Position numbers and translations under genes: made by a program. 64,000 nt of DNA from Chloroflexota bacterium. Its GTDB lineage: Bacteria; Chloroflexota; Anaerolineae; Anaerolineales; Villigracilaceae. Positions 31,942 through 35,144 of this stretch are shown here, one piece after another; position 1 is the first letter of the stretch; every line of letters starts with the position of its first letter. The notes under the pieces were generated by a model. The model was not told where the DNA came from. It saw nothing but the letters and a program-made list of their open reading frames with translations, and did no database searches. Where the stretch lies: NCBI GenBank assembly GCA_019873735.1, contig JAIOAQ010000015.1, forward strand, positions 1 through 64,000, written 5' to 3'.

Positions 31942-32018
31942 GGGCGCGTAGCTCAGTCGGTCAGAGCGCATCACTCACATTGATGAGGTCGGGGGTTCGA
32001 GCCCCTCCGCGCCCACCA
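31942..32018 (+). tRNA. tRNA-Val (anticodon CAC), CCA encoded
   Basis: GGGCGCG/CGCGCCC acceptor; CATCA-CTCACAT-TGATG anticodon arm; GGGGG-TTCGAGC-CCCTC T-arm; ACCA end. Confidence 0.93.
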
Positions 32019-32282
32019 CAACGAGACCTTGGCGGGTCTCGTTTCGTCTTCAAAAGCGGGAGCTTCGAGTGCCCGGCGGGCGATCCGCGCCCACTAAAAC
32101 GAGACCTTGACGGGTCTCGTTTGGTTTTCAAAAGCGGGGGCTTCGAGTGCCCTGCGGGCGATCCGCGCCCACTACAACGAGACCTTGGCGGGTCTCGTTT
32201 CGTTTTCAAAAGCGGGGGCTTCGAGTGCCCTGCGGGCGATCCGCGCCCACTACAACGAGACCTTGACGGGTCTCGTTTCGTT
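32007..32282 (+). repeat. Tandem array of tRNA-Val 3'-end remnant plus terminator hairpin (78-bp period)
   Basis: ccgcgcccac at 32007 (in the tRNA), 32085, 32163 and 32241 (exact 78-bp spacing); acgagacc...ggtctcgt hairpins at 32021, 32099, 32177 and 32255. Confidence 0.9.
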
Positions 32283-32381
32283 TTAACTCAAGGCAAAAAT
32301 TCACCGCCGAGACGCCGAGAGCGCAGAGTATTTTTCATAAAAGGGCGACTCACGCCGGGGCGGAGCGATGTAGGGCAAGAT

Positions 32382-32409
32382 GTAGGACAAGTCTTAAGAC
32401 TTGTCCTAC
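32382..32409. repeat. 28-bp perfect palindrome
   Basis: gtaggacaagtcttaagacttgtcctac. Confidence 0.95.
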
Positions 32410-32477
32410 TGTGTACGCGCTCCCCAGACCCCCAAAGCGATTCAGAGTTTCAGAGTCCAGAGAATCAGAGTTCAGAT

Positions 32478-35144
32478 TTAACGATGGGAGAGACAACCAC
32501 CCGAAAACCCAGACTCCCGTAGAGGCTGTCCGGATCGCACCAGCTGCGAAGGGCACAGCGCGCCCCCGCGACTGCTGACGAACGAACCGCCGCGTACCAC
32601 ACGGTAGCCAGAAGCGGCTTCGTCTTCGCGGCCGTCGTCCACCCGGTAGGGATAAGATTTGTAAAGCGAATGGGTCCACTCCCAGACGTTGCCGGCCATG
32701 TCGGCGCAGCCGTAGGGCGAATCACCCTGCGGGGAGAATTGCCCCACCGGGGAAGTACCGCCGAGGCCGGTTTCAGCCACGTTGCACCTTTGGGGATCGA
32801 AGTCATCTCCCCAGGGGTACACACGTCCATCTGTGCCGCGGGCAGCCTTTTCCCATTCGGCTTCGGTCGGCAGGCGGTAGGCTTTGCCGCTTTTTTCGCT
32901 CAGCCACCGGCAGTAGGCCTGCGCATCCTCCCAGGAAACGTTCACCACCGGGTGGTCGCCCTTTTCGGGCGGGTACTGGTCGCCATCCCAATCCCGCGGC
33001 GGCCGCTGGCCAGTTTCCTTTACAAACAATTGATACTCCCGGTTTGTCACCGGGTATTTGCCGATGAAGTATTCCGGCAGGTCCACTTCGTGCGCCGGCT
33101 GTTCGTCCTTGAGCCAGCACTGCCATTCTTTGTCGTTGTTGACCTCCTTCAAAACCCGCTGCGCCTGTTCCGGGGTGGTGCCCATCAAGAATTTGCCGGC
33201 CGGGATGCGCACCATCTGCGGCTCGAAGGGCTGGCGCGCCGCTTCGGCGGAGGCAGCCTGCGGCGCTTCGGCGCGGCTGGTGAGAGTGAAGTACAGGCGC
33301 AGTTCGTCGGGAAGCAGGCCGGTGAAATTAGCATCGGGCATCTGCGGCGGGTGCAGGGTGAGCATGCGGCGCACAGCCTGACGGGCGGCATAGGGCGCCA
33401 GGGCGGGCGGCAGTTCGGCCCGGGGCGCAGTTCCCTTCTCCGCCCCGCGCCGGCCGGGCAAGGGTTCGCCTTCGGTTGCTTCTCCGGCGCGGCTTTCGAG
33501 GCGGTAATACTCTTCCAGTTCCTGCAGATAGCGCGGCGTTTCCTTGAGCAGCGCATACAGTTCGGGATAGACGGTCTGGATGGCCACCACCTTCGCCAGG
33601 CGGATGGGCTTGATGCGCCCCTGGAGTTTTTTCTCGCGCTTCTCGGCCAGCCTCCAGAGCATCAGAAAGACGTTCACGGTGCGCTTGATCTGGCGCGGGT
33701 TGTCGCCCAGGCCCTCGGCAAAGACTCGCGGACATTCTGGATGCGGCCACTCGGTGCTCAAGCCGCTGACGAAGTCGTCCATATCGTCGCGCTCCACCGG
33801 CGGAATCCAGAAGGGCAACTGGATGATTTTCTCCAGGTAGCGCGCCCCGTCAATGACGAAGCGCGGCGCCTTGTCCTCCTCGCTGTTCTGTTTCAACTCG
33901 CGATACTTGATCTCGATGCCGCGGGCAATGACCTCCTGATCGAGGCCGAGCAGGAAGACACAGCCGGGCACATCCACGAACAATTTGATGGCCTCCAGCA
34001 CTTCGATGGCCTTCTCCGGCAGGCAGCGGTCGAGGTCATCCACAAAGACCACCAGGCGGCCGTTTTGGGCACAGATGCGGTCTTTGACCAGGCGGGCAAA
34101 CTGCTGCTGGAACTGCTCGAGGAAGCGCACCTGCTCGATGTGAATCTTCGTCCGCTCGCGCTGGATGGCCTCGAAGGCGGTCTCGCTCAGATTCTCGGCC
34201 CCGGCCTTTTGCAATTCTTCGACCAGTTTGTCCAGCGCCGCCCCGCCGGGGAGAAAAGGCAGGCCGATTTGCACCGCCCCCTGGGCCGCTTTGGCGCCCA
34301 GTTTCGCCAGATCAATCGTCACCCCGCCGGATTTCTCCAGGTCGAGGGCGCGGTAGAGCAGGGCGGTCAGTTTGCTGAGTTCGTCATCGGTGAGTTTCCC
34401 GTCAAGATGCAGCGCCGAAAGGATGCTCAACGGGAAGGCGCGCCAGAGCGTCTCTTCCTTATCGTACTTCCAGGCGTCGAACCAGGCCACGGTGAACGTC
34501 GGCGGCAAGCCTTTTCTCACCATCCGCATCAGCGAGGTCTTGCCCGACCCCCAGGTGCCGAATACGCCGATGGTCAGCGGCGTGATGGCCGTTTTGCACA
34601 CATCCACCAGCGTTTCGACGTAGGGGGTAAAGTCGAGCAAGTCTTTGTCGGTGGGCAGACTCACAGAAGAAGCAGCAACCGATGGCTTGGAAACGGATTG
34701 AGTGGGCGGCGGTAAAATTTTCAACGCATCTGCCCGCAGATACAACGATTGCAAGAGTTTCTCTTGAGCGTCGGGCAGGAAATAATCCGCCCATTGCCAT
34801 TGCTGGAATATTAACGGCAGTTCGCAATCGTCCAAGCGCAGGGGGATGATGTAAATCGTCCCTTCAGGTTTTTCTTCAGCAAAGGTCAAGGCACGCTTGA
34901 ATTCCTTTTGGATATAGCCCTCTTTGTCAACCGATTCTTTTGAAAGACACACAAGAATTGCATCGGCGTTGCGCAAGGCTTTGAAAATTTCTACTTCCCA
35001 ATCCATTCCAGGAAGGAGATTGACTTCATCCAGCCAGGGTTCGATCCATGGCTGAGACTTAAGCAATTTGTACAAATCCCTTATGAGGGGTTTATCTTCT
35101 TTTGCATGGCAGAGAAAAACTCGAAGAGGTCGCGGTTTGGGCAT
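32478..35144 (-). CDS. TIR - KAP P-loop NTPase - FGE-sulfatase/C-type-lectin-fold fusion; C-terminus apparently frameshifted
   Basis: TIR: VFLCHAKEDKPLIRDLYKLL...LVCLSKESV; KAP: IGVFGTWGSGKTSLMRMV...VVFVDDLDRCLPEKAIEVLEAIKLFV; FGE: VRIPAGKFLMGT...YPVTNREYQLFV...VVNVSWEDAQAYCRWLS...YRLPTEAEWEKAARG...YGCADMAGNVWEWT...YRVVRGGS. Canonical ARCALRSW..GFRVVVSP tail lies in another frame, ending at 32465. Confidence 0.88.
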   Translation of the reverse strand: MPKPRPLRVFLCHAKEDKPLIRDLYKLLKSQPWIEPWLDEVNLLPGMDWEVEIFKALRNADAILVCLSKESVDKEGYIQKEFKRALTFAEEKPEGTIYIIPLRLDDCELPLIFQQWQWADYFLPDAQEKLLQSLYLRADALKILPPPTQSVSKPSVAASSVSLPTDKDLLDFTPYVETLVDVCKTAITPLTIGVFGTWGSGKTSLMRMVRKGLPPTFTVAWFDAWKYDKEETLWRAFPLSILSALHLDGKLTDDELSKLTALLYRALDLEKSGGVTIDLAKLGAKAAQGAVQIGLPFLPGGAALDKLVEELQKAGAENLSETAFEAIQRERTKIHIEQVRFLEQFQQQFARLVKDRICAQNGRLVVFVDDLDRCLPEKAIEVLEAIKLFVDVPGCVFLLGLDQEVIARGIEIKYRELKQNSEEDKAPRFVIDGARYLEKIIQLPFWIPPVERDDMDDFVSGLSTEWPHPECPRVFAEGLGDNPRQIKRTVNVFLMLWRLAEKREKKLQGRIKPIRLAKVVAIQTVYPELYALLKETPRYLQELEEYYRLESRAGEATEGEPLPGRRGAEKGTAPRAELPPALAPYAARQAVRRMLTLHPPQMPDANFTGLLPDELRLYFTLTSRAEAPQAASAEAARQPFEPQMVRIPAGKFLMGTTPEQAQRVLKEVNNDKEWQCWLKDEQPAHEVDLPEYFIGKYPVTNREYQLFVKETGQRPPRDWDGDQYPPEKGDHPVVNVSWEDAQAYCRWLSEKSGKAYRLPTEAEWEKAARGTDGRVYPWGDDFDPQRCNVAETGLGGTSPVGQFSPQGDSPYGCADMAGNVWEWTHSLYKSYPYRVDDGREDEAASGYRVVRGGSFVSSRGGALCPSQLVRSGQPLRESGFSGGCLSHR

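Follow-up and report, generated by a model that had tools for sequence, protein, structure and literature searches.

A TIR-KAP-lectin fusion gene in a Chloroflexota bacterium, probably an orphaned target of a diversity-generating retroelement

Architecture of the fusion gene

Here we analysed a stretch of 64,000 nt from the genome of a Chloroflexota bacterium (the window, by which the whole stretch is meant), in which one open reading frame (ORF) of 888 aa, running on the minus strand from 35144 to 32478, joins a TIR domain, a KAP NTPase and a domain of the formylglycine-generating enzyme (FGE) family in a single polypeptide. This fusion had been proposed in the first-pass annotation and was borne out by the Pfam scan, in which all three domains scored far above the cut-offs (TIR_2, aa 9-127, 2e-22; KAP_NTPase, aa 173-460, 2e-35; FGE-sulfatase, aa 642-859, 3e-57). 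The features of the gene are as follows:

32478..35144, minus strand: ORF of 888 aa with TIR, KAP NTPase and FGE/C-type-lectin domains, its final ~27 residues out of frame
34764..35120, minus strand: TIR domain, aa 9-127, putative catalytic glutamate E81 (Pfam; homolog comparison)
33765..34628, minus strand: KAP P-loop NTPase domain, aa 173-460 (Pfam; Walker motifs read from the sequence)
32568..33221, minus strand: FGE/C-type-lectin domain, aa 642-859 (Pfam, FGE profile, TvpA match)

The Walker A (GTWGSGKTS) and Walker B (VVFVDDLDR) motifs of the KAP domain are both intact in the sequence, and E81 of the TIR domain, invariant in five TIR homologs, is by analogy probably the catalytic glutamate of the NADase type of TIR. 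Formylglycine-generating enzymes require a copper-binding cysteine pair just past the RGGS motif. No such pair is present at RGGSFVSSRGG of the target gene, and we rejected an active formylglycine-generating enzyme because this active-site pair is absent. The neighbouring genes comprise a tRNA-Val, a peptidase-like gene and a PAS kinase/regulator. Neither reverse transcriptase (RT), Avd nor template repeat (TR) was found in the 64,000-nt window, as had been said before, and tblastn detected no remnants of RT or Avd there.

Adenine-specific signature of the variable repeat

The end of the FGE domain has the layout of a variable repeat (VR) of diversity-generating retroelements (DGRs), with RGG, ARCA and GFR in order, and comparison with TRs of related bacteria delimited two features in it:

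32486..32594, minus strand: VR, RGGSFVSSRGG / ARCALRSWCDPDSLYGSLGFRVVVSP (changes relative to homologous TRs concentrated at adenines)
32558..32563, minus strand: GC run, 2 nt short of the in-frame form, where the frame breaks within the VR (codon alignment to homologous TRs)

When compared with a TR of the type found in the relative G067 (RGGSFNNNHRNSRCANRNRNNPNNLNRNNGFRVAVSH), the VR was changed at 23 of the 32 template adenines and at 14 of the 80 other bases (Fisher p = 8e-8), and the third-position pyrimidine was kept in 12 of 13 AAY codons (background 0.51, p = 0.002), both p values being uncorrected and taken from the best-fitting of several related TRs. In the target, the AGG codons of this TR appear as GGG, TGG and GGG, and its CAC codons as CGC and CCC. 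The pattern also held against the only TR of the source genome, on contig C2 (p = 9e-6). Because the divergence from the best foreign TR still amounts to 14 of 80 non-A bases, the true template is not among the TRs compared and has never been seen.

The layout of RGG, AR, A, R and GFR also occurs in ordinary FGE proteins (for example, loci L133-L139), and the tail could in principle be an ordinary FGE-fold tail, never exposed to a DGR, whose likeness to a VR is the normal consensus of the family. Ordinary FGE tails taken as controls differ from TRs at a fraction of 0.36-0.58 of the non-A bases (36-58%, against 17% in the target) and keep the pyrimidine at ~5-9 of 13 AAY third positions, against 12 of 13. 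The target gene moreover carries a DGR-specific flank, and its orthologs are targets of DGRs encoded in cis (see below). The reading as an ordinary tail is already disfavoured by these results and we hold it to be very improbable indeed, the evidence supporting instead that the target VR is the product of a DGR and the gene a former DGR target.

Frame break within the variable repeat

Past RGGSFVSSRGG the 888-aa frame departs from the tail motif and ends in ALCPSQLVRSGQPLRESGFSGGCLSHR, whereas ARCALRSWCDPDSLYGSLGFRVVVSP is encoded in a different frame, ARCALRSWCDPDSLYGSLGFRVVVSPIVKSEL, which stops at 32465. Codon-by-codon alignment to homologous TRs reduced this break to a 2-nt contraction of the GC run at 32558-32563. 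The DGR-like tail of the first-pass annotation was therefore only partly confirmed, for the layout is there, but the tail that had been quoted as one spans two frames. Because the contraction puts the VR out of frame, the assembled allele would probably make a sensor whose lectin tail is defective, although the contraction may possibly be an assembly error.

Indels were found in the VRs of 8 of the 23 TR/VR pairs that we aligned from the DGRs of relatives, four of them in-frame and four frameshifting (+4, +19, -1 and -5), so that rewriting by DGRs appears to be prone to indels in these bacteria. With frameshifting indels in 4 of 23 pairs, an out-of-frame VR is an expected by-product, one that could be overwritten as long as the cassette is present and would be permanent in its absence. 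Programmed frameshifting was considered because both VRs of the source genome lose the frame immediately ahead of ARCA. We rejected it, as the assorted frameshifting indels in these pairs make error the simpler explanation.

If the contraction were an assembly error, the gene might instead be a functional receptor, frozen when the retroelement was lost, with one VR retained as a heritable specificity. A run of GC dinucleotides, a plausible site for such an error, contains the break, and fixed tails can persist, as argued by the KAP-FGE proteins of G013 and G033 (loci L120 and L122), two species in which the tails are nearly identical (29 of 31 residues) and no DGR RT was detected. On the other hand, the sole available sequence has a broken frame, and VR indels are as common in the DGRs of relatives as described above. 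Altogether we find this alternative quite improbable. In their own right, the tails at L120 and L122 look fixed, contrasting with the diversified ones of other relatives.

The retroelement of the source genome

The source assembly comprises 3.06 Mb in 71 contigs and is 94.75% complete. Profile search of this genome identified a sole RT, on contig C2, which carries LPIGNLTSQ, the motif of DGR-type RTs. Its best match in the PDB was the RT of 8UB7 (1e-48), a structure that also holds Avd, and the gene following it is an Avd (NF033474, above cut-off; PF22296). The locus is arranged in the order target, RT, Avd and TR:

L002:8600-13628, contig C2: complete DGR with NACHT-FGE target (frame-shifted VR), RT, Avd and TR

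The VR of this target differs from the C2 TR at 12 of 30 adenines and one other base, and contains a 4-nt insertion relative to the TR that shifts its frame. These comparisons indicate that a DGR serving another target works, or once worked, in the source organism. Of the DGR RT and matching TR that the first-pass annotation had proposed to search for in the genome, the RT is present. The C2 TR was rejected as the template of the target VR, since 22 of 81 non-A positions mismatch, including silent changes in constant codons; it did not make this VR recently and is not its cognate. Searches of the assembly with the FGE profile, TR DNA and VR DNA yielded no second TR, and the profile search no RT other than that of C2. 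Given the completeness and the number of contigs of the assembly, the cognate cassette could have gone unassembled, and would then be missing from the data and not lost from the organism.

Orthologs in the bacterial family

The survey of relatives covered 121 genomes, namely the source genome and 120 others. DGR-type RTs were detected in 27 of the 121, and KAP-FGE orthologs with 52-67% identity to the target in 15 of the 120. The orthologs of G060 and G067 lie directly upstream of a DGR RT, and in G047 and G072 a TR starts ~340-370 nt past the start of the ortholog's VR. The first-pass annotation would have fallen had there been neither TR nor DGR RT in the genome or its relatives and no A-specific variation. 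The C2 element, the RTs of the family and the cis-encoded orthologs are what was found, and together with the A-specific pattern they support its proposal of a DGR-type tail, with the retroelement lost or located elsewhere.

In genome G067, contig C117 terminates just beyond the VR of the KAP-FGE gene, and contig C248 starts inside a VR and runs on through RT and TR. Their ends share an overlap of 122 bp in which the flank is identical and 23 sites differ, 22 of them at template adenines. They are most simply read as alleles of a single hypervariable locus, at which the assembly was interrupted, a pair of paralogous loci being the less simple alternative. In either case this ortholog bears the DGR signature, and a sister genome presents two versions of the ortholog's tail in one assembly that differ almost only at template adenines.

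Other arrangements were observed in the family. At L198:6378-6960 and L199:14600-15020 a KAP-FGE gene is followed by a TR with no RT adjacent, both loci adjoining queuosine-synthesis and uracil-DNA-glycosylase genes, and they look like non-autonomous pairs of target and TR. At L199:2535-6824 (minus strand) an ORF of 1429 aa fuses an FGE target with a DGR RT, and the VR near it differs in length from its TR by 19 nt.

Origin of the fusion

The TIR domain of the target shares 81% identity with the TIR of a TIR-FGE protein in G050, and its KAP and FGE domains are closest to those of KAP-FGE proteins (67% and 69% identity, respectively). The Pfam scan detected no TIR in five KAP-FGE orthologs, and no TIR match was found at any KAP-FGE ortholog locus. 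Since the parts have their nearest relatives in two different families, the gene looks like a join of both, each of them a family of DGR targets.

The flank of the variable repeat

Downstream of the VR three features were distinguished:

32440..32477, minus strand: TCTGA block, made up of degenerate CTCTGAAT repeats; in the bacterial family such a flank lies 3' of DGR VRs
32422..32436, minus strand: TTTGGGGGTCTGGGG, probable left arm of the relatives' post-VR hairpin, right arm absent (comparison with G067 C248)
32382..32409, no strand: perfect palindrome of 28 bp, a dispersed repeat, where relatives have hairpin and RT

A 22-nt motif, CTCTGANTCTCTGGACTCTGAA, lies just 3' of the target VR and has two copies in the 3.06-Mb genome (up to 3 mismatches allowed), the other being just 3' of the VR of the C2 target. 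A looser form of the motif gave 14 matches with at most one mismatch in 10 genomes, 11 after an FGE VR (including G006) and 2 just ahead of a DGR RT. Three matches with 2 mismatches had neither an FGE VR nor a DGR RT as neighbour. A reversed control pattern also matched in G067, G057 and G014, showing that in some genomes the motif has background. TCTG units were common downstream of the VRs at DGR loci and almost lacking downstream of TRs, and they numbered 0-1 after ordinary FGE genes. In the window and at L173-L189 the repeat block was noted behind DGR VRs and not behind TRs, as a possible signature of the homing site or of the target. The block is absent from some KAP-FGE genes (L116, L120-L122 and L126). 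We advance as a tentative possibility, itself rather doubtful, that the TCTGA block, lying between VR and hairpin, is a so far undescribed element of the homing site that orphan VRs retain and TRs lack. If true, it would locate frozen DGR-made immune receptors after the loss of their retroelement, and the target gene would be a fossil of receptor diversification of the somatic type, fixed in the genome.

In many relatives the TCTGA block is followed by a hairpin, either CCCGCC-GTAA-GGCGGG or CTGGGGGGC-loop-GCCCCCCAG, and in BPP-1 a hairpin at the post-VR site is required for efficient homing (PMC3240598). At the target gene one arm-like stretch only (32422-32436) is present and the right arm is absent. 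Beyond TTTGGGGGTCTGGGG follow the 28-bp palindrome, three 78-nt repeats and tRNA-Val. The palindrome, GTAGGACAAGTCTTAAGACTTGTCCTAC, was rejected as a DGR hairpin because it is a dispersed repeat with six copies in the source genome (in the window and on contigs C25, C67, C47, C2 and C60), one of them ~4.4 kb from the C2 TR. The 78-nt units, arranged in tandem at 32006-32284 just after tRNA-Val (31942-32018), contain inverted repeats (AACGAGACCTTGGCGGGTCTCGTTT).

These data bear on whether the gene is still an active target, diversified in trans by the C2 RT and Avd through a second TR in a part of the genome that was not assembled. A complete DGR RT and Avd exist in the source genome, the TCTGA block is intact and common to the target gene and the C2 target, relatives have pairs of target and TR with no adjacent RT, and trans diversification has been reported in Thiohalocapsa PB-PSB1 (PMC10907252). 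Against this, the assembly, at the completeness given above, holds no second TR, the homing hairpin of the BPP-1 type is reduced to one arm, and the contig crosses the VR unbroken. The absence of one hairpin arm, of the TR and of the RT speaks against present-day variability of the VR, and we regard such a remote active target as unlikely.

A probable orphaned sensor

Taking all the results together, we consider it probable that the gene is a new member, unusual in its fusion to a TIR, of a known class of NTPase-lectin sensors diversified by DGRs, now orphaned, frozen and probably broken, a reading drawn from sequence comparison. We infer an immune function of the protein from its domain content alone, by analogy. 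In such a sensor the FGE/C-type-lectin tail would bind the ligand, the KAP NTPase would act as the switch and the N-terminal TIR would give the output, probably a cleavage of NAD that stops the infected cell. In the orthologs the downstream DGR rewrites the tail, RT with Avd copying the TR with its adenines randomised and the copy replacing the VR. In the source lineage, the TIR of a TIR-FGE gene was probably fused with a KAP-FGE gene. The cassette of RT, Avd and TR, with half of the post-VR hairpin, was probably lost beside the dispersed palindromic repeat, the order of events being conjectural. Loss of the cassette and of the hairpin half would have left the VR frozen, out of frame by the 2-nt contraction and presumably without function.

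A search of the literature on orphaned DGR targets gave nothing useful. The target gene displays the state after the loss of a retroelement, with a frozen and frame-shifted tail and a flank that is still recognisable. Comparing the orphan with its cis-encoded orthologs makes it testable whether specificities made by DGRs become fixed as inherited receptors.

Comparison with known systems

TvpA, a surface lipoprotein of Treponema denticola, is a DGR variable protein of solved structure. It shares the FGE/C-type-lectin fold with the target (PDB 2Y3C; match 1.3e-10, aa 752-860) and, unlike it, has no TIR or NTPase domain. The KAP-type ATPase of the target also matches QatA of the Qat anti-phage system (NF041923, aa 165-459), but with 170 bits, far under the 600-bit cut-off, and no QatB, QatC or QatD was found among the ORFs neighbouring the gene.

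The likeness is closer within the family. The KAP-FGE orthologs of G060, G067, G047 and G072 (52-67% identity) have the VR layout in common with the target, and those of G060, G067 and G072 the TCTGA block as well. They differ in having no TIR match and in having a DGR RT or TR directly downstream. The TIR-FGE targets of DGRs in G050, G017, G006, G041 and G007 have TIR domains 51-81% identical to that of the target and an FGE tail with VR, with RT or TR adjacent in several, and unlike the target they have no KAP domain.

Among described systems, the DGR clade 5D antigen sensors (STAND/KAP NTPase-CLec proteins) have a C-terminal FGE/C-type-lectin domain with VR and a central NTPase, KAP being named among its types, some carry an N-terminal TIR, and filamentous Chloroflexi are among their hosts (PMC10907252, Dore et al. 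2024). For Thiohalocapsa PB-PSB1, perfect matching at non-A positions was the basis for inferring activity in trans, and the authors also describe degenerate loci close to MITE-like repeats (PMC10907252). The target VR has no such match to the sole TR in the assembly, and its locus resembles a degenerate DGR locus. In contrast to the clade 5D sensors, the target has no cassette, a frame-shifted VR and no matching TR in the genome, and it has TIR, KAP and FGE in a single polypeptide. What they have in common is the architecture of NTPase and C-type lectin with an optional TIR, and it is by this architecture that we assign the TIR-KAP-lectin fusion a place among the bacterial immune sensors diversified by retroelements.
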